In this document: positions 15,578 through 55,858 of the stretch, piece after piece | Numbering within the stretch: position 1 is the first letter of the stretch | How the letters are laid out: each line of letters begins with the position of its first letter | NCBI RefSeq assembly: GCF_020736365.1 | Contig: NZ_CP085988.1 | Span: 541,501 to 605,500 of the forward strand | Source of the DNA: Clostridium sp. M62/1 | Lineage (GTDB): Bacteria; Bacillota; Clostridia; Lachnospirales; Lachnospiraceae | Direction: 5' to 3' | Length of the DNA: 64,000 bases | Position numbers and translations under genes: made by a program | Notes under the pieces: model-generated | Seen by the model: the letters and a program-made list of their open reading frames with translations, nothing else | Databases searched by the model: none | What the model was told of the DNA's origin: nothing

Positions 15578-17293
15578 ATGAGTCTGGCAGGTCAAAAAAA
15601 GGCTGGGGAGATGGGCAGACAGGGAGCTGATGGGAAAAATACGGCCATTTTAAGGTTTTTCAGGGGACTTTGCCGGGAAACTGCAGAGTTTGGCTCCTTC
15701 ATCAAAAGAAACAGGGCGGGTGCGCTTTTCTCCGGGGCAGCCGCCCTGTTTGTGTATTGGGGATGGCTGACAAGCGCTGATATTACTGTGGACAGCGAGA
15801 TTATGATGACAGATCCCCAGAGCATGATGGCTTCCTGGCTGGGAATTAACCGGTTCGGACTCGTTTTTACCAAGCATCTGTTCGGAATGACTTCCTTTGT
15901 TCCCTCTGTGTCCAAGGTGCTTACCGTGTGTATGCTGTGGATAACGGCCATGTTTTTTTCCTTTTGTGTGTATAAGTGGAGCGCAGAACAGAAACGGTTT
16001 CTCATTTTCTCGGCAGCTTTTCCCGCACTGTATCTGACGGCTCCCTGCTTTGCCGAACAGTTTTATTTCACTCTCCAGTCCTTTGAGGTGGTATTTGCCC
16101 TGTTTTTGTGCGGGGCGGCTGTGTATGGGGCGGGGCAGCTTGTTTTTTTTCGCGGAGGCCTGCTCTGGGGTCTGATATCTGTTCTCCTTATGGTCTGGGC
16201 CTTCGGAACGTATCAGGCCATGGCGGCAGTTGCGGTGACTCTGACCGTGATTCTGTTTATGACCGTCTATCTGTCCGACACGGGAAAAGGGAGGGGAAGA
16301 AGCTTCTGGTTCCTCTCGGGAGTCCGCCTGGCGCTTATCTTTCTGTCAGGTTTTGTGCTGTATCTTCTGACGGCTTCTCTGGTGCGCCGCCTGTCAGGGG
16401 GAAGCGAAGCCTATGTGGCAGATATGGTGCACTGGAAAACAGAGGGAGTCAGACAGTGCATCGGGTATGTGAAGGGAGAGGTGCGCAGAGTATTTGACTG
16501 CTACTATGTGATGTTCAGGCCGGGATTTCAGTGGATTCTTCTATTGTTTCTGACCATATCCTGTGTCTGGGCGGGGAGGAAAAGGGAGAAGGGTCTCCTC
16601 TTTTATCTGGCGGCTGCGGTTCTGTTTCTCATCTCACCGTTTTTTATGACCATCGTTTCAGGGTATTACCAGCCAATACGGGCACAGCTTGTCTATCCTC
16701 TTGTCTATGGGTTTTCCGCGGCCTTTCTGGCAGCGGCTCTCTGGCCCTCAGAAAGTGCAGGCGCGCGGAAGGAAGAGCAAAAATCGAAAGCAGGAAGAAG
16801 GAGCCGTATCAGAAAGGGACTTTCCCTGGCAGCAGTTTTTATGTGCCTGGCGGCTTCCTGGCGTCAGGGCTGTGATACTGCCCGTCTCTTTCAGACGGTA
16901 CATGAGGTGTCAGAGCAGGACACAGCTCTGACGGGAGAGATCTATGGAAGGGCTGGGAAAATGGCTGCTGACGCAGGACTCGATATTTCCGACTGTACCT
17001 TTATTTTTCTTGGAAGCAGGCAGGCAAGTCTTACAGGGGAGAAGCTGCTGGGGGATGTGATTGGATGTTCCTTTTACCAGTGGGATGCAGCCAGCTCCAT
17101 GGGAATTTCCAGAAGGATTTACGATCTGATGCAGGCGCTCAATCTGCCGTGTGCAGAGCCGGTTCTGTCAAGGTATCTCGACTCTCTTCCGTTTTCTCAG
17201 TCAATGACCTGTTACCCTGCAGAAGGGTCAATCGTACTGGATGAGGATACTGTGATTGTAAAACTGTCAGAACCTGTGCAGAGCGGCTCCTGA
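15578..17293 (+). CDS. Polytopic membrane glucosyltransferase-domain protein (GtrC-like)
   Basis: 571 residues. The open frame extends to ATG 15545, but GGAAAGGAGGAGGAAG directly ahead of ATG 15578 makes that the likely start. About ten hydrophobic segments fill residues 50-430, with a soluble outer domain at the C-terminus. Early acidic residues (ADITVDSEIMM) and later aromatic loops resemble Glucos_trans_II/GtrC-type proteins, which move a lipid-linked hexose onto a cell-surface glycan outside the membrane. Pairing with the GtrB-like gene supports this; a GtrA flippase gene is not present. The target polymer (teichoic acid, capsule) cannot be told. Confidence 0.75.
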   Translation: MSLAGQKKAGEMGRQGADGKNTAILRFFRGLCRETAEFGSFIKRNRAGALFSGAAALFVYWGWLTSADITVDSEIMMTDPQSMMASWLGINRFGLVFTKHLFGMTSFVPSVSKVLTVCMLWITAMFFSFCVYKWSAEQKRFLIFSAAFPALYLTAPCFAEQFYFTLQSFEVVFALFLCGAAVYGAGQLVFFRGGLLWGLISVLLMVWAFGTYQAMAAVAVTLTVILFMTVYLSDTGKGRGRSFWFLSGVRLALIFLSGFVLYLLTASLVRRLSGGSEAYVADMVHWKTEGVRQCIGYVKGEVRRVFDCYYVMFRPGFQWILLLFLTISCVWAGRKREKGLLFYLAAAVLFLISPFFMTIVSGYYQPIRAQLVYPLVYGFSAAFLAAALWPSESAGARKEEQKSKAGRRSRIRKGLSLAAVFMCLAASWRQGCDTARLFQTVHEVSEQDTALTGEIYGRAGKMAADAGLDISDCTFIFLGSRQASLTGEKLLGDVIGCSFYQWDAASSMGISRRIYDLMQALNLPCAEPVLSRYLDSLPFSQSMTCYPAEGSIVLDEDTVIVKLSEPVQSGS

Positions 17294-35936: not shown

Positions 35937-37370
35937 ATGTCAGAGTTTGCAGGTGATGCCAGAAGGCTGTTGGAGCTGGTGGGCGGCAGGGAAAATATTG
36001 TGTCATTCACCCACTGCGCTACCAGGATGCGGTTTGTCCTGGCAGATGAGAAGAAAGCGGATGTGAAGGGAATTGAGGCTCTTGAGAGTGTGAAGGGGAG
36101 CTTTACGCAGGGAGGTCAGTTCCAGGTTATAATCGGAAATAAGGTTTCTGTATTTTTTGATGAATTTTCCGCTGTGAGCCACATGGAAGGTGTGGATAAG
36201 CAGGAGGTCAAGAATGCGGCGAAAGGGAATATGAACCTGCTGCAGAGAGCGGTTGCCAATCTGGCCGAAATTTTTGCGCCGCTGATTCCGGCGATTATCG
36301 TGGGAGGTCTGATTCTGGGATTCCGCAACATTATCGGAGATATTAAGCTGCTGGAGGGCGGAACGAAGTCAGTGACAGAGGTTTACCAGTTCTGGAACGG
36401 TGTATACAGCTTTCTGTGGCTGATTGGCGAGGCTATCTTTACCTTCCTCCCGGTGGGCGTTACCTGGTCTGTGTGCAGAAAGATGAATGCCGATCAGATG
36501 CTTGGAATTGTGCTCGGCATTACTCTGGTTTCCCCGCAGCTGATGCCGGCCAGCGACTTTGTGGCCGCCAAAGCGGCAGGGGAGGCTGTGAAAATGTGGG
36601 ATTTCGGATGGTTCCACATCAATATGGTAGGATACCAGTCCCAGGTGATCCCGGCCATCCTGGTGGGAATTGTATTCTCACTTATCTACCGTTTCTTAAA
36701 GAAGAGGATTCCGGATGCAGTTTCCATGATTCTGGTGCCGTTCTGTTCCCTGGTTCCGGCGGTGCTTCTGGCCCATACAGTAATAGGGCCCTTTGGCAGA
36801 ATGCTTGGAGACGGACTGGCAGGGATTATCATGGCGGGCTTTTCTTCTTCTCTCTGCTGGCTGTTCAGCGGAATTTACGGTCTGTTATACCCTCTTTTAG
36901 TGATCACGGGACTTCACCATTCCATGCTTCCCATTGACCTTCAGACCGTCGCTACCATGGGAGGAATTTATACCTTCCCTGTGGTAGCCCTCAGCAATAT
37001 TGCCCAGGCGACGGCAGTAGCGGCCTTTGTATTTGTAAACAGAAAGGATGCCAAGATCCGTGAGATTGGTATTCCTTCCTTCATCTCCGGCTATCTGGGA
37101 GTTACAGAGCCGGCCATGTTCGGTGTAAATTTAAAATACCTGTATCCGTTTATCGGGGCCATGCTCGCCAGCGGAATCATGGGCGTGATCTCCAGACTGT
37201 TCGGCGTGATTGCCAACAGTGTGGGAGTTGGAGGAATCCCGGCGTTTCTGTCCATGAGAGGAGATAAGATATTAGTGTATCTTGTATGCATTCTGCTTGA
37301 TATGGTGCTGGCTTTTGGAATTACGGTAATTCTGTCAAAAACGAAGCTGAAAAATTACGGAACCCGTTAG
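35937..37370 (+). CDS. treP: PTS EIIBC component, trehalose type
   Basis: 477 residues from ATG 35937 (AAAAGGAGGAGCAG ahead; the open frame extends to 35880). Residues 1-90 are the EIIB domain, with the phosphorylated Cys27 in FTHCATRMRF. Residues about 105-460 are the EIIC membrane domain, with roughly ten helices and the GITGLHHS-like stretch (ITGLHHSMLPIDLQ) of the glucose/sucrose superfamily. It imports trehalose as trehalose-6-phosphate. No EIIA domain is fused, so it must use a glucose-type EIIA encoded elsewhere, as in other TreP systems. The gap to treC is 51 bases. Confidence 0.9.
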   Translation: MSEFAGDARRLLELVGGRENIVSFTHCATRMRFVLADEKKADVKGIEALESVKGSFTQGGQFQVIIGNKVSVFFDEFSAVSHMEGVDKQEVKNAAKGNMNLLQRAVANLAEIFAPLIPAIIVGGLILGFRNIIGDIKLLEGGTKSVTEVYQFWNGVYSFLWLIGEAIFTFLPVGVTWSVCRKMNADQMLGIVLGITLVSPQLMPASDFVAAKAAGEAVKMWDFGWFHINMVGYQSQVIPAILVGIVFSLIYRFLKKRIPDAVSMILVPFCSLVPAVLLAHTVIGPFGRMLGDGLAGIIMAGFSSSLCWLFSGIYGLLYPLLVITGLHHSMLPIDLQTVATMGGIYTFPVVALSNIAQATAVAAFVFVNRKDAKIREIGIPSFISGYLGVTEPAMFGVNLKYLYPFIGAMLASGIMGVISRLFGVIANSVGVGGIPAFLSMRGDKILVYLVCILLDMVLAFGITVILSKTKLKNYGTR

Positions 37371-49893: not shown

Positions 49894-50310
49894 ATGGGAA
49901 ATCTGTATGGCTATATTCGTGTCAGTACCAGAGAACAGAATGGGGACAGGCAGATTCTTGCATTGAAAGAGCTGTTTATCCCGGAGAAAAACCTTTTTAT
50001 GGATACCCGCCGAGGCAAAGACCTGATGGGAACGTTTTTAAGCGATATTGTCCTGCAGGTGCTATCCCTTGTGGCAGAGAATGAGCGTATCAATATACGG
50101 CAGCGTCAGGCAGAAGGAATCGCTGCCGCCAAAGCCAGGGGCATTCGTTTTGGAAGACCCCCAGCGCCTTTACCGGAAAACTTTCATCACCTGTATCACC
50201 AATGGAAAAACGGAAAAATTACTGGAAAAACTGCTGCGAAACTATGCGGGATGCCGCTTTCCACCTTCCGCTACCGGGCAGAGATTTATGAAAAAAACAA
50301 TTTTTTGTAA
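49894..50310 (+). pseudogene. Serine recombinase/resolvase with an internal in-frame deletion
   Basis: The 138-residue frame (AGGAGGG ahead of ATG 49894) starts like a resolvase, YIRVSTREQN with the catalytic Ser, and reads to NLFMD near residue 36. It then jumps to TRRGKDLMGTFLSDIVLQVLSLVAENER, which in full-length relatives (about 190-205 residues) lies some 60 residues further on. The missing block contains the DRLGRN-type segment with the active-site arginines, so strand exchange should be impossible. The C-terminal DNA-binding helix-turn-helix (GKTAAKLCGMPLSTFRYRAEIY) is intact and could still bind a site. Confidence 0.8.
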
Positions 50311-50328
50311 ACAGATGTTTTACAAAAA
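50302..50328. repeat. Short inverted repeat between recombinase and transposase remnants
   Basis: TTTTTGTAAA (50302-50311) and TTTACAAAAA (50319-50328) form a 10 bp inverted repeat. It could be a terminator for the recombinase frame or an old insertion-sequence end. Confidence 0.45.
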
Positions 50329-50366
50329 CACATATTTATTATATCAACTGCAGGAGGTCATTTTTT

Positions 50367-50880
50367 ATGATGGGAAAGCAAAGTGGACAAATCCAGATGG
50401 TAATCTTAGACATAGATTCTATAATTCCAGAGGATCATCTTCTGAGACAGATAAAAACTGTGTAAATTTTGACTTTATGTACGAAAAGACAGTCCCCTAT
50501 TATTCTCATGTTGGCAGAAGATCTATTGCCCCCGTTGTTCTGATGAAAATGCTGCTAATTGGTTATCTTTATGGGATCAAACCAGATCGGAGACTTGAGG
50601 AGGAAGTATCTCTTAACCTTGCTTACCGCTGGTTTTGCGGAATTGATCTTATGGATAGAGTACTGGATCATTCAACTTTTAGCCAGAATAGTAGAAGACG
50701 TTTTCAAGAGGCCGGCATATTCCGGGAAATTTTTAATAAGATCGTATTGAAGTGTATAGATCTTGGAATCGTATCAGGAGAAATCGGTGTTGCAGATGGT
50801 TCATTCCTTCCAACGGATCCTGGAACAGCCGCTATGAGGCAGTTGAGGCAGTCCAACGCTCCACTGTAAAGTTTCTTGAC
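50367..50880 (+). pseudogene. IS1182-like transposase remnant, two frameshifts and 3' truncation
   Basis: GGAGG at 50353-50357 precedes ATG 50367, which reads MMGKQSGQIQMVILDIDSII…LLRQIK and stops at 50465 because one A appears lost in a run of A near 50455. Homology continues in another frame (NFDFMYEKTVPYYSHVGRRSIAPVVLMKMLLIGYLYGIKP…GEIGVADGSFLPT) to about 50815. A second shift then moves it to SWNSRYEAVEAVQRSTVKFLD, ending near 50880. Only about 170 of some 450-550 residues remain. The family is inferred from the DUF772-type N-terminus. No inverted-repeat ends were found. Confidence 0.8.
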
Positions 50881-51613: not shown

Positions 51614-51844
51614 CTGTGAGGTTCTGCCCGACAAGCACTCCTTTCCACTGTCAGCCCTGGGGCAACCCGCCAATATGGCTCAAATCTGTTGACATTTCCC
51701 TTTAAAAGAAGTTAAATTAAAGAAACATCCTGCATATGCTTATCTGGCGCAGTCTGCCGGACGGGAAGGCAGGGGAAGGCAGGCGGCTTTTAGAGACGCC
51801 TGATTCCATGGAAAGGAAAAATCAGGTAAAAGGTGGAAAGAAAC

Positions 51845-53242
51845 ATGTATCAGATTGATTTTAATAAACCGCAGCACATTTATTTTATGGGAATCGGAGG
51901 CATCAGCATGAGCGGCCTGGCGGAGATTCTGATGGATGAGGGATTTACCGTCACAGGCTCTGACTCCAAAGAGAGCGAGCTCACGGAGCATCTGAGAAGC
52001 AGAGGGGCCGTGATCTATATCGGACAGCGGGCAGAAAACATCAGACAGGCAGAGCAGACAGGAAAGAAGATTGACGCCGTGGTGTACACGGCAGCTATCC
52101 ATCCCGACAATCCGGAGTTTGCGGCTGCGAGGGAGGCGGGGCTTCCCATGCTTTCCAGAGCCGTCCTTCTGGGGGAGATGATGCGAAATTACAGGGAGGC
52201 TATCGCCGTGTCGGGAACTCACGGAAAGACCACCACAACCTCCATGCTCTCGGAGATCTTTCTGGTTGCCGAGGCAGACCCTACCATATCTGTGGGAGGG
52301 ATCCTTCCGTCCATAGGAGGAAACATCCGCGTCGGCGGACCGGAATTTTTCATCACAGAGGCCTGTGAATATACAAACAGCTTTCTGGAATTTTTCCCGA
52401 CTATTGAGGTGATCCTGAATATCGAGGAGGATCACATGGATTTCTTCAAGGATCTGGCAGATATCCGCAGCTCCTTCACACGCTTTGCAAAGAAAACTCC
52501 AAAGCAGGGAGCCGTTGTCATAAACGGGGAGATTGAAGACTGGCAGGAGATTGTGAAAAACACAGAGGGCAGGGTGATTACCTTCGGAACAGACAGAGGG
52601 TTTGACTACAGCGCAGGGGAGATTTCCTACGACTCCCTTGCCAGGCCGACCTTTGACTTCTATATAAGAGGGGAAAAGCGGGATACCCTGAGCCTTGGAG
52701 TCAGCGGCGAGCACAATGTATACAATGCCCTCGCAGCCGCAGCCGCAGCCCTTGAGGCGGGGCTCTCCCTGGAAGCGGTGAAGCGGGGACTTCTGAGCTT
52801 TACGGGAACCAAGCGCCGCTTCGAGAAAAAGGGAGTCCTGAATGGGGTGACGATCATAGACGACTACGCCCACCATCCCCAGGAGATTCGGGCGAGCCTT
52901 AAGACAGCTCAGAATTATCCCCACAACCGGATCTGGTGCGTGTTCCAGCCTCACACCTATACGAGGACAAAAGCATTTCTCGACGAGTTTGCAGAGGCGC
53001 TTTCCATGGCAGACTGTATCGTTCTGGCCGATATCTATGCGGCTCGGGAAACGGATACACTGGGCATCAGCTCCCGCGACATAGCAGAAAAAATTGAGAG
53101 GCTGGGTAAAAAAGTCTGGTATTTTCATACCTTTGAGGAAATTGAAGAATTTCTCAAAAAAAGCTGTATACACGGCGATTTGTTGATAACTATGGGGGCC
53201 GGAGACATTGTAAATGTGGGAGAAGCGCTGCTTGCAGAGTAG
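51845..53242 (+). CDS. murC: UDP-N-acetylmuramate--L-alanine ligase
   Basis: 465 residues, cytoplasmic peptidoglycan precursor synthesis: it adds L-alanine to UDP-MurNAc with ATP. The N-terminal Rossmann-like domain has FMGIGGISMSGLAEIL, the ATP loop is GTHGKTTTTSM (from Gly124), and the C-terminal domain has DDYAHHPQEIRA and FQPHTYTRTKAF. AAGGTGGA at 51830-51837 supports ATG 51845 rather than the in-frame GTG at 51833. The stop codon is immediately followed by the first DnaA box, without a terminator, so some read-through into the dnaD operon is possible. Confidence 0.96.
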   Translation: MYQIDFNKPQHIYFMGIGGISMSGLAEILMDEGFTVTGSDSKESELTEHLRSRGAVIYIGQRAENIRQAEQTGKKIDAVVYTAAIHPDNPEFAAAREAGLPMLSRAVLLGEMMRNYREAIAVSGTHGKTTTTSMLSEIFLVAEADPTISVGGILPSIGGNIRVGGPEFFITEACEYTNSFLEFFPTIEVILNIEEDHMDFFKDLADIRSSFTRFAKKTPKQGAVVINGEIEDWQEIVKNTEGRVITFGTDRGFDYSAGEISYDSLARPTFDFYIRGEKRDTLSLGVSGEHNVYNALAAAAAALEAGLSLEAVKRGLLSFTGTKRRFEKKGVLNGVTIIDDYAHHPQEIRASLKTAQNYPHNRIWCVFQPHTYTRTKAFLDEFAEALSMADCIVLADIYAARETDTLGISSRDIAEKIERLGKKVWYFHTFEEIEEFLKKSCIHGDLLITMGAGDIVNVGEALLAE

Positions 53243-53494
53243 TTATCCACATTATCCACAAAGTTTTCAACATTTTATGTAAAGGAGCACTGTGGATTGT
53301 TTGATTTACATAATAAAAGTTTCTATTGTATGAAAAACATTGAAAATTCAATAGTTTCGACAGGAACAGACAGGATCAGCGCAGAAGAAAAATAAATTTG
53401 TCCACATTATCCACAATATCCACATGATATTCTGGGGATAAGTGGAAGTGTTTCCTTTTGACAGAACCTGTGTTATGATGATTCCAGTGGATAA
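53243..53494. promoter_or_regulatory. Cluster of DnaA boxes upstream of the DnaD/DnaC-like operon
   Basis: Consensus TTATCCACA occurs at 53243-53251 and 53252-53260 (directly abutting) and at 53407-53415. The last is flanked without gaps by TTGTCCACA (53398-53406) and ATATCCACA (53416-53424), each one mismatch away. Reverse-orientation near-matches are TGGGGATAA (53433-53441) and AGTGGATAA (53486-53494). Weaker sites lie at 53264 and 53291. All but the last lie upstream of the extended -10 at 53471-53479; the last lies over the early transcript. The arrangement indicates DnaA binding here, probably for control of the primosome genes. Confidence 0.85.
53471..53479 (+). promoter_or_regulatory. 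Extended -10 promoter for the DnaD/DnaC-like operon
   Basis: TG-T-TATGAT forms an extended -10. There is no good -35 at 17 bases (TTTCCT); TTGACA at 53458 is too close at 10 bases. It lies between DnaA boxes. Confidence 0.55.
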
Positions 53495-53578
53495 GTCCCC
53501 GAAGCCGTCAGCCTGCAGATGGGCTGGCGGTTCCGGAGGCGAAAGACAGGAAAAACGGCAGACAGAAAGGTGAAGCAG

Positions 53579-54799
53579 ATGGGACAGTTCATACAGAACC
53601 GTCTGGCCCATGAGGTGACGGTCATCCCCAATGAATTTATAGACAGATACATGGCAGAGGCTAACGGCGAGTATGTGAAGGTATACCTCTATATTCTCAG
53701 ACACGGAGGCAGTGCAGACGATGTCTCCGAGATTGCGGATGCCCTGAATCACACGGAGGCAGACGTGCGCCGCGCCCTCGTCTACTGGGAGAGGGTGGGA
53801 GTCCTTGCGCTTACAGACAGGCCGGCGCCCGCCCGCCCGTCTGTTTCCGCCCGGCAGTCCCCGGCTCCTTTAGGCGGGTTCTCCCTTTCCTCTGGACAGG
53901 GCGTCTCTGCTTCCGGTCAGACAAAGCCTTGCCAGGGAGCCGGCTCCATGGAGGGAGGCAGCCCCGGAACGGGAGATATTCTCTGCAGGCTGTCAGGGGA
54001 TGAGGAATTCTCCCAGCTTCTGTATATCGCCCAGAAGTACCTGAACAGGACTTTTACCCCCACAGACTGCGATGTGCTGGCCAACCTCTACGGGAACCTC
54101 CATATGCCCACGGAGCTTCTGGAGTATCTGATAGAGTCCTGCGCCCAGAATGGACATACCAGCATCCGCTACATAGAGAAGGTGGGACTGAGCTGGCATG
54201 AGAGGGGCTTTAAGACGGCGGAGGAGGCCAAATCCCAGTCCATGGGCTATAAGAAGGATATTTTTGCCGTGATGAAGGCCTTCGGCCTGTCTGGGCGAAA
54301 CCCGGCCAACGGCGAGATTGATCTGATGGACAAGTGGTTTGGAACCTACGGCTTTACCAGGGAGATTGTGGTGGAAGCCTGCAACCGGACGATGGCGGCC
54401 ATTCATAAGCCCAGCTTCCAGTATACGGACAGCATTCTGACTGAGTGGAACCGGGCAGGAGTGCGCACCATGAGAGATGTGGAGGAAGTGACGCGGATGA
54501 GAAAGGAGGAGGCGAGAAGGGCCAGAGAGTCAGGCCAGTCCGCTTCCCTGCAGGCAGGAGCCAGGGGAGCGGCAGCTTCCGCAAGACAGACAGGGACGTC
54601 CGGCTCCAGACGCCAGGGCGCCAGAAAGAGCTCCAACCGCTTCCACAACCTGGAGGAGCACGGCTATGATTATGATGAAATGATCTGGAATATGATCAAT
54701 ACAGGAGCCTCAGACAGCCCCGGGGAGCCTCAGAGCGTCCGACAGGAGGCCCGGGGCGGAGAGAATCCCGGGGCGTCCCGGGGATTCCCGGACAAATAG
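53579..54799 (+). CDS. DnaD-domain replication protein
   Basis: 406 residues from ATG 53579 (AAAGGTGA ahead; the open frame extends to 53519). The N-terminal 80 residues form a winged-helix-like region (YVKVYLYILRHGGSADDVSEIADALNHTEADVRRALVYWERVGVL), followed by a Ser/Pro-rich linker and the DnaB_2/DnaD-type domain at about 165-300 (YIAQKYLNRTFTPTDCDVLANLYGNLHMPTELLEYLI…, GFTREIVVEACNRTM). A basic low-complexity stretch and a conserved C-terminal YDYDEMIW end the protein. Proteins of this type help load the replicative helicase at origins or restart sites. It is followed by the DnaC-like loader, 57 bases on. Confidence 0.88.
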   Translation: MGQFIQNRLAHEVTVIPNEFIDRYMAEANGEYVKVYLYILRHGGSADDVSEIADALNHTEADVRRALVYWERVGVLALTDRPAPARPSVSARQSPAPLGGFSLSSGQGVSASGQTKPCQGAGSMEGGSPGTGDILCRLSGDEEFSQLLYIAQKYLNRTFTPTDCDVLANLYGNLHMPTELLEYLIESCAQNGHTSIRYIEKVGLSWHERGFKTAEEAKSQSMGYKKDIFAVMKAFGLSGRNPANGEIDLMDKWFGTYGFTREIVVEACNRTMAAIHKPSFQYTDSILTEWNRAGVRTMRDVEEVTRMRKEEARRARESGQSASLQAGARGAAASARQTGTSGSRRQGARKSSNRFHNLEEHGYDYDEMIWNMINTGASDSPGEPQSVRQEARGGENPGASRGFPDK

Positions 54800-54856: not shown

Positions 54857-55858
54857 ATGGCACTGAGCAATTCCCAGTACGATTCCATCATGCGTATTTA
54901 CAACCAGGCACAGCTTCGACAGAAGAGGGAGCTGGATAAGCGCCGGGAGGAGGTTTATGAAAAAATTCCTGCCGTAAAAGAGATCAATGAGGAGATCACC
55001 GCCTCTGCCGTCAAGAGTGCGAGACAGCTTCTGGCAGGAGATGACAGGTCGGCTAAGGGGCTTAAAAGGCGTATTGCAGATCTGTGCGAGGAGAGAGAGG
55101 TTCTGCTGTCCGCCTACGGCTATCCTGCCGATTACCTGGAGCTTCACTATGACTGCCCGGACTGCCGTGACACAGGCTACAGGGACGGGAAAAAATGCCA
55201 CTGTTTCAAGAAGCGGGAGATCAGCCTTCTGTACGATCAGTCCAATATCAGGGAAATCCTGAGCAGAGAGAATTTCGACACCTTTTCCTACGAATACTTT
55301 GACGACACCAAGGTGGACGAGCGCAGCAACAAGACAGCCAGGGAGTACATGCGCCAGGTGGTGGCCCTGTGCCGTTCCTATGTGGAGCACTTTGGAGAGC
55401 ACAAGGACAACCTTCTGTTTACGGGAAAGACAGGGCTTGGAAAAACCTTTCTCAGCAACTGCATTGCGAAGGAGCTTCTCGATCAGAGCTATTCCGTCGT
55501 CTATCTGCCGGCTGTGGAAATGTATGAGATCTTTTCAAAGGAAAGGTTTGACTACGATTCCACAGAGGAGGACAGAGATCGCTCCCGCTATCTGCTGGAC
55601 TGCGATCTCCTGATCATCGACGATCTGGGAACGGAGCTGGTAAACACCTTCACCACCTCCCAGCTCTTCTACTGCATCAATGAGCGGCTGAACCGCAGAA
55701 AGGGAACCATCATTTCCACCAATCTTCCGGTCAATGAGATGCGCGATGAGTTCACAGATCGGGTCATGTCGAGGATTGTGAGCCAGTACACGGTGATCCC
55801 TCTTTACGGGGAGGATATACGAATCAGAAAAAAGCTCATGCAGGCCAGAAGACAGTAG
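54857..55858 (+). CDS. DnaC-like helicase loader ATPase
   Basis: 333 residues. A coiled, charged N-terminus precedes a zinc site CPDC…CHC (about residues 101-119), then the AAA+ core: Walker A TGKTGLGKTFLS (Gly190), Walker B LLIIDDLGTE and sensor I IISTNLP. This is the DnaC/DnaI/IstB helicase-loader family; the zinc-binding N-domain resembles Bacillus DnaI. It should deliver the DnaB-type helicase to DNA. Co-transcription with the DnaD-domain gene and DnaA boxes upstream support a replication role rather than an IS21 helper, and no insertion sequence is adjacent. Confidence 0.9.
   Translation: MALSNSQYDSIMRIYNQAQLRQKRELDKRREEVYEKIPAVKEINEEITASAVKSARQLLAGDDRSAKGLKRRIADLCEEREVLLSAYGYPADYLELHYDCPDCRDTGYRDGKKCHCFKKREISLLYDQSNIREILSRENFDTFSYEYFDDTKVDERSNKTAREYMRQVVALCRSYVEHFGEHKDNLLFTGKTGLGKTFLSNCIAKELLDQSYSVVYLPAVEMYEIFSKERFDYDSTEEDRDRSRYLLDCDLLIIDDLGTELVNTFTTSQLFYCINERLNRRKGTIISTNLPVNEMRDEFTDRVMSRIVSQYTVIPLYGEDIRIRKKLMQARRQ

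Follow-up and report, generated by a model that had tools for sequence, protein, structure and literature searches.

The region between murC and the dnaD-like primosome gene of Clostridium sp. M62/1 is probably, with a chance of about three in four, the promoter of a helicase-loading operon, dnaD-dnaC, that is directly controlled by DnaA, and the same control would be conserved in the order formed by the Lachnospiraceae and their relatives. The region lies in the window, i.e., the whole stretch of 64,000 nucleotides that was analysed, which covers positions 541501-605500 of contig C1 of a 3.9-Mb genome. Coordinates refer to the window unless preceded by C1. The phased distance between the DnaA boxes and the promoter argues for direct control by DnaA over mere titration of the protein or a second origin.

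DnaA boxes between murC and dnaD

A pattern search of the window for the DnaA box TTATCCACA gave perfect matches on the + strand at 53243-53251, 53252-53260 and 53407-53415, and boxes with one mismatch at 53398-53406 (+), 53416-53424 (+), 53433-53441 (-) and 53486-53494 (-). These seven boxes at zero to one mismatch lie within 252 bp and contain two abutting runs on the + strand, array 1 with two perfect boxes (53243-53260) and array 2 with three boxes (53398-53424). The first-pass annotation, made from the letters of the sequence, had listed three perfect and at least four one-mismatch boxes in about 250 bp, back to back in runs of two and then three, and this description was reproduced. The whole window has 5 perfect boxes compared to 0.45 expected, a number reached in none of 100 shuffles, and 32 boxes at up to one mismatch compared to 11.2 expected; at the murC-dnaD cluster, several boxes stand close together above chance. 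The two remaining perfect boxes are isolated on the - strand at 15936-15944 and 36191-36199, the first having a one-mismatch neighbour at 15967-15975.

Array 1 directly adjoins the stop codon of the upstream ORF (51833-53242, +; Pfam Mur_ligase, Mur_ligase_M and Mur_ligase_C), which we take from its context to be murC, encoding UDP-N-acetylmuramate-alanine ligase, and not another Mur ligase. In an alignment of 27 loci, a weak third box, TTTTCAACA, with two mismatches recurs behind array 1 (53264-53272, +). The inverted box between array 2 and the promoter, TTATCCCCA (53433-53441, -), was found in the one-mismatch search and the same alignment; identity in this stretch is 50%, and relatives often have GGTGGATAA on the + strand. 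The one-mismatch box TTATCCACT (53486-53494, -) falls on the predicted transcription start, and none was seen by eye at the same place in the other 26 rows of the alignment. A further one-mismatch match, TTATCAACA (-) at 53181-53189, about 62 bp before array 1, also recurs in relatives. It was rejected as a DnaA box, since it is part of the murC coding sequence (LLITMGAGD).

Further upstream, at 49894-50869, a short ORF that retains only the end of a resolvase domain (PF00239 positions 109-143) is overlapped by an ORF which by eye looks like the beginning of a transposase; the region is described here as putative remains of a mobile element.

Promoter and dnaD-dnaC operon

By sequence and position, the extended -10 promoter of dnaD-dnaC is TGTGT-TATGAT (TGTGTTATGAT; 53469-53479, +), which predicts a transcription start near 53486. 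A T-rich stretch occupies the -35 place (53451-53459, +), where identity is 67% and relatives have TATTTTCTTTT; a promoter scan found no standard sigma-70 promoter there. The boxes had been described as surrounding an extended -10 promoter. The promoter element is present, whereas all boxes lie upstream of it except the one at the predicted start (53486-53494).

The first gene downstream encodes a dnaD-like DnaD-domain primosome protein of 406 aa (53579-54799, +; PF07261, TIGR01446). Alignments of the seven other DnaD homologues of the same genus begin at residue 15-25 of the ORF as listed, and by eye a stretch resembling a ribosome binding site precedes 53579; the start codon is therefore probably at 53579 rather than at 53519. 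The second gene (54857-55858, +; PF01695, PF00308, NF005304) encodes a DnaC/DnaI/IstB-type ATPase, a putative helicase loader. Its match to NF005304, 'ATP-binding protein', is 386 bits above the cut-off, and the DnaC and DnaI models stay below their own cut-offs. The DnaD-domain and DnaC-like loader genes named in the first-pass annotation thus have matching domain models (PF07261 and TIGR01446; PF01695 and NF005304).

Conservation in the order and beyond

Two sets of loci were used: a first set with the 80 best loci out of a larger number, and a second one with 58 loci drawn from 61 genomes of the order. In the first set, murC was not found at 3 of the 80 loci and five gaps shorter than 60 or longer than 700 bp were dropped, leaving 72 gaps; among the dropped gaps, perfect boxes are present in L096 and L123 but absent, perhaps because of wrong start codons, from L081, L117 and L129. 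In the second set, murC was found at 46 of 58 loci and 41 gaps were used. The perfect box TTATCCACA occurs 176 times in 70 of the 72 first-set gaps (0.39 in shuffles) and 95 times in 33 of the 41 second-set gaps (0.25 in shuffles), and is absent from the remaining 2 and 8 gaps, respectively; three control words are at or under expectation in the murC-dnaD gaps. All of these counts come from related genomes, which are non-independent samples.

In 49 of the 72 first-set and 24 of the 41 second-set gaps, the first box starts 0-1 bp past the murC stop. Array 2, where present, usually starts 155-175 bp past this stop; loci of the Mediterraneibacter and Dorea types mostly lack array 2 and retain one to three boxes. 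Sequence identity was determined for 36 loci chosen by one box of each array, so that identities of 97% and 83% obtained there are inflated by the selection. Box 2 of array 1, outside the selection, has a mean identity of 94%, and in array 2 the identities are 63% for the box preceding the selected one and 86% for the box following it. In a gapped alignment, the spacer that separates the arrays reaches 62% compared to 60% for shuffled spacers. Since unselected boxes are conserved and the spacer is at shuffle level, the boxes are held by selection while the rest of the gap has drifted to chance. Relatives that share this gene order thus carry the boxes at the same gene as well, and the doubt raised with the original annotation, that the boxes might not be conserved there, is not borne out.

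The border of the conservation was determined using 30 loci from the wider class, comprising 20 outside the order, 7 new loci of the family and 3 left out of the count as sampled earlier (L144, from the window's genome; L145, the same genome as L026; L161, the same as L057). No perfect box was found within 500 bp upstream of dnaD at the 20 loci outside the order, and at least one at all 7 newly drawn family loci. L145 has one-mismatch boxes only, and L161 has no box. Outside the order, at least one of at least 137 genomes with a dnaD match has, among the matches listed, an abutting pair within 1.5 kb upstream. In genomes outside the order (e.g., G153, G195, G130 and G196), at least ten abutting pairs are found 3-11 kb downstream of dnaD; perhaps dnaD-dnaC lies near oriC there, and in the order of the window the operon may have been displaced from the origin.

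Phasing of the boxes to the promoter

The test for phasing covers pattern-matched promoters, i.e., the 75 of 113 usable gaps with an extended -10 near a box. The distance from the start of the last box to the -10 is 58-59 bp at 34 loci, 67-69 bp at 6, 75-80 bp at 16 and 87-91 bp at 12, which together are 68 of the 75 loci; the other seven distances are 43, 50, 53, 55, 63, 97 and 118 bp. With one locus per genus (20 of 34 genera of the second set), the period of this distance peaks at 10.4 bp with R = 0.65. Against uniform distances of 50-95 bp, the p-value at 10.5 bp is 0.00025, and 0.004 when the 58-bp class is removed (n = 16). Rival periods give R values of 0.18-0.48 (0.48 for period 12), with the exception of the half period 5, which is nearly as high (0.61). 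For the control distances, R at 10.5 bp is 0.23 (-10 to murC stop), 0.19 (last box to murC stop) and 0.13 (-10 to dnaD start). The first set, which is a partial repeat with partly overlapping taxa, gives R = 0.58 and p = 0.00035 (n = 22, 58-bp class counted once). In gaps with a pattern-matched promoter, the boxes are therefore placed relative to the promoter in steps of 10 bp, the last box mostly 58, 68, 78 or 88 bp before the -10. Between array 1 and array 2, no fixed phase was found (R at 10.5 bp 0.31, best R 0.42), and looping between the two arrays by a fixed phase is not supported.

Phasing of this kind would be expected if DnaA, bound on a single side of the helix, touches RNA polymerase. 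The box centres near -66, -76, -86 and -96 resemble the positions of class I activators, as worked out with CRP of E. coli. DnaA bound to array 2 and the inverted box would meet RNA polymerase on one helix face and would activate the weak extended -10 promoter in the manner of class I activators, so that the supply of helicase loader would follow the level or the nucleotide state of DnaA. Within direct control, activation is most likely and is ranked above repression, with the sign read from position alone.

Terminator hairpin behind murC

Hairpins were searched for box-blind in the first 110 bp of the 113 gaps, using at least 8 unbroken pairs, 3 G-C pairs and 5 T in 8 as thresholds. They were found in 45 of 72 first-set and 29 of 41 second-set gaps (74 of 113) compared to 1.2 and 0.8 in shuffles; a stem followed by a T run is above chance in the relatives. 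The left arm holds the box core TCCACA in 41 and 24 of these hairpins (65 of 74). The stem pairs were surveyed at the 100 of 123 murC-containing loci which have a box near the stop. The outer stem positions next to the core show many and varied compensating pairs; that the core pairs are invariant carries no weight, because the arm had been located by its box. The excess over shuffles, the box core in the arm and the compensating pairs argue that the hairpin in the relatives is a genuine terminator built from two inverted box cores. It would insulate dnaD against read-through from murC, and DnaA bound to its arms would perhaps strengthen it.

In the window, the corresponding place is 53254-53297 (+), with the left arm at 53254-53265 (core of box 2), the right arm at 53286-53297, which holds TGTGGAT, the inverted box core, and a T-rich tail. 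This copy is weak (10 of 12 pairs, fold z -1.26) and was missed by two terminator and hairpin scans, whose thresholds it did not reach; the terminator is thus claimed for the lineage, not for this copy. At 53275-53283 and 53305-53313 lies an inverted repeat, TTATGTAAA ... TTTACATAA, with one copy in the hairpin loop and the other past the hairpin. The two words are found 39 times, spread over 29 of the 72 first-set gaps, compared to 0.56 in shuffles, and may form an alternative RNA stem or the site of another regulator.

Spo0A-type box between the arrays

A word search found TTCGACA at 53356-53362 (+). As the reverse complement of TGTCGAA it matches the Spo0A box perfectly, and it lies between the arrays, its start 42 bp before that of array 2. 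Among the 72 first-set gaps, 21 contain the word, 25 times in all (1.74 in shuffles); in the second set it is found 15 times, in 15 of 41 gaps (1.06 in shuffles). Forward boxes 109-128 bp past the murC stop account for 17 of the 25 and 11 of the 15 words, so that the box is above chance and has a recurrent place; in the whole window it is not enriched (8 compared to 6.1). Of the 48 genomes with Spo0A, 16 have the box, compared to 0 of 10 without Spo0A (Fisher's exact test, p = 0.048), some of the Spo0A-less genomes being incomplete. With the window's genus removed, the numbers are 8 of 40 and 0 of 10 (p = 0.18), and this test of gene presence is a weak hint at a link to Spo0A. The consensus sequences of Spo0A and DnaA resemble each other according to a passage of PMC5295017; TTCGACA could therefore be a derived DnaA site. 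Sda was found in none of the 61 genomes of the order, and B. subtilis was the only positive among 14 control genomes. In part of the lineage, the Spo0A-type box may give sporulation an additional influence on the promoter.

Genome-wide distribution of abutting pairs

Abutting pairs at up to one mismatch were searched in the 61 whole genomes of the order, with overlapping matches counted separately. This gave 138 matches in 48 genomes, and a reversed control pattern gave none in the 61. Of the matches, 68 lie within 700 bp upstream of dnaD (36 genomes), all 68 on the dnaD strand; among the 59 genomes with dnaD located, such a pair occurs in 27 of 36 of the window's family and in 9 of 23 of other families. 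Another 33, all on the hpf strand, are found upstream of hpf at up to 700 bp; they come from 24 of the 57 genomes in which hpf was located. Each of the 101 pairs at the two genes thus follows the strand of its gene. The other 37 lie elsewhere; with dnaA located in 50 of the 61 genomes, seven of them are within 2 kb of this gene (six in G023 and one in G021). With 101 pairs at dnaD and hpf compared to seven near dnaA, abutting arrays mark these two promoters more than the origin. Conserved arrays, orientation on the gene's strand and helical phasing to the promoter, all read from sequence, point to control of the loader genes by DnaA, as had been suggested at the outset.

The window's own genome has 54 perfect boxes compared to 8 for the reversed pattern, and five abutting-pair matches, three at the dnaD cluster, one before hpf (C1:1190020) and one at C1:3708719. 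Three perfect boxes stand within 173 bp at the dnaD cluster; the only other such place is at about C1:3708728-3708930, with three in 203 bp. There, at C1:3708663-3708931 (L034 7663-7931), three perfect and four one-mismatch boxes lie inside an ORF which by eye resembles a pseudouridine synthase, and they are possibly a coincidence of coding.

The second conserved cluster of DnaA boxes, upstream of the ribosome hibernation factor gene hpf, is located at C1:1189652-1190149 (L033 7653-8150). In 7 of 8 genomes of the window's genus it has two pairs 96-97 bp apart, and in 5 of 8 TTCGACA occurs 99 bp past the first box of the nearer pair.

Alternative explanations

DnaA bound to the arrays might repress dnaD-dnaC and thus form a negative feedback on loader supply. 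This is a sub-case of direct control, so that its odds overlap with those of the main reading, and we consider it doubtful though serious. Five of the six B. subtilis DnaA targets named in the introduction of PMC4447404 appear to be repressed, and in the window's genome one box overlaps the predicted transcription start. However, no box was seen by eye at that start in the other 26 aligned loci, the conserved boxes end short of the -35 place, and phased upstream sites before a weak promoter would suit activation better.

According to the second and unlikely explanation, the arrays titrate DnaA as a sink away from oriC and set the timing of initiation, their place before dnaD being incidental. 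In B. subtilis, as described in a passage of PMC5295017, initiation comes early when six DnaA-box clusters outside oriC are deleted together, although the same review assigns these clusters no significant role in initiation. As a further point in favour of a sink, dnaA and dnaD are about 46, 107, 125, 139, 190, 307 and 880 kb apart in the seven of nine searched genomes in which both genes could be placed on one contig. Such a sink, however, needs no single gene, no single strand (101 of 101 pairs at dnaD or hpf) and no helical phasing, and some clades retain just one to three boxes. Titration is possible alongside promoter control, as its by-product.

It is very improbable that the boxes of array 1 are kept solely as the stem of the terminator and not for DnaA. 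The box core is a hairpin arm in 65 of 74 detected cases and covarying pairs stand beside it, but box 1 recurs though it lies outside the stem, a stem alone does not demand the box sequence, and array 2 is also kept, where by eye the 27-locus alignment has no such hairpin.

The secondary replication element considered in the first-pass annotation, be it an origin or the relic of one, was rejected: the boxes are dense, the gap is AT-rich (67% AT at 53243-53480) and primosome genes adjoin, but GC skew is positive in every 4-kb bin of positions 1-60000 and -0.014 in the last bin, with no switch at the site, and dnaA with its own boxes is about 190 kb away. Domain IV of dnaA is encoded at C1:404206-404412 and the cluster begins at C1:594743, away from dnaA and oriC; many boxes, two perfect and the rest with one mismatch, stand before and after the dnaA gene. 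A search for the DnaA-trio pattern found none at the cluster and none at the genome's own oriC either.

Comparison with known systems

The reading of direct DnaA control of dnaD-dnaC has a close likeness in the sda promoter of B. subtilis, where DnaA acts as a transcription factor and direct activator and ties replication to sporulation via Spo0A (part of PMC4447404). Here, the target is instead the helicase-loading operon, a 0A-type box lies in the same region, and Sda was found in none of the 61 genomes. The other B. subtilis clusters outside oriC (ywlC, ywcI/vpr, gcp/ydiF, trmE and yydA, besides sda) are likewise clusters of boxes, several of them in DnaA-controlled promoters; none of the targets named in the passages of PMC4447404, PMC5295017 and PMC8203912 is dnaD, dnaB, dnaI or hpf. 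Unlike the clusters described in those passages, the arrays in the order abut head to tail and one of them is, in relatives, part of a terminator; the phasing to the promoter, measured in the order, may be another difference. Spo0A boxes also stand beside DnaA sites at the B. subtilis oriC, partly overlapping them, as given in a part of PMC5295017, whereas here the box is in the region of the loader promoter.

The E. coli loci datA and DARS are DnaA-box loci outside oriC, too, but change the nucleotide state of DnaA together with IHF or Fis (in part of PMC5295017), and nothing examined here points to such a function. The Caulobacter DnaA regulon comprises replisome genes, the dnaB helicase gene and dnaQ, with predicted boxes upstream; it belongs to another phylum, concerns the helicase and not its loader, and the relevant passage of PMC8203912 mentions no phased arrays.

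A limited literature search, including passages of PMC4447404, PMC5295017, PMC8203912, PMC7561715, PMC13220808 and PMC12112137, found no description of dnaD-dnaC as a DnaA target. Within this literature, DnaA-controlled promoters are a known kind, while the target, the phased tandem arrays and the terminator built from boxes appear to be new.

Implications for the order

A more far-reaching model, which we put forward as tentative, is that DnaA runs a small dedicated regulon in the order with dnaD-dnaC and hpf as main sites, each with its boxes on the strand of the gene. It would combine phased class I activation, i.e., a feed-forward from initiator to loader, an insulating terminator built from boxes, and Spo0A competing or cooperating in the place of Sda. 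If true, the DnaA regulon would be widened to helicase loading and perhaps to ribosome hibernation, and the region behind murC would be an example of a terminator made from the binding sites of the initiator. The 10-bp steps between boxes and promoter give a direct prediction for tests of activation. According to a passage of PMC7561715, it is not known how C. difficile regulates the activity of DnaA. For clostridia lacking the known regulators of B. subtilis or E. coli, a circuit from initiator to loader, if true, would be a concrete point of control in a common gut lineage.
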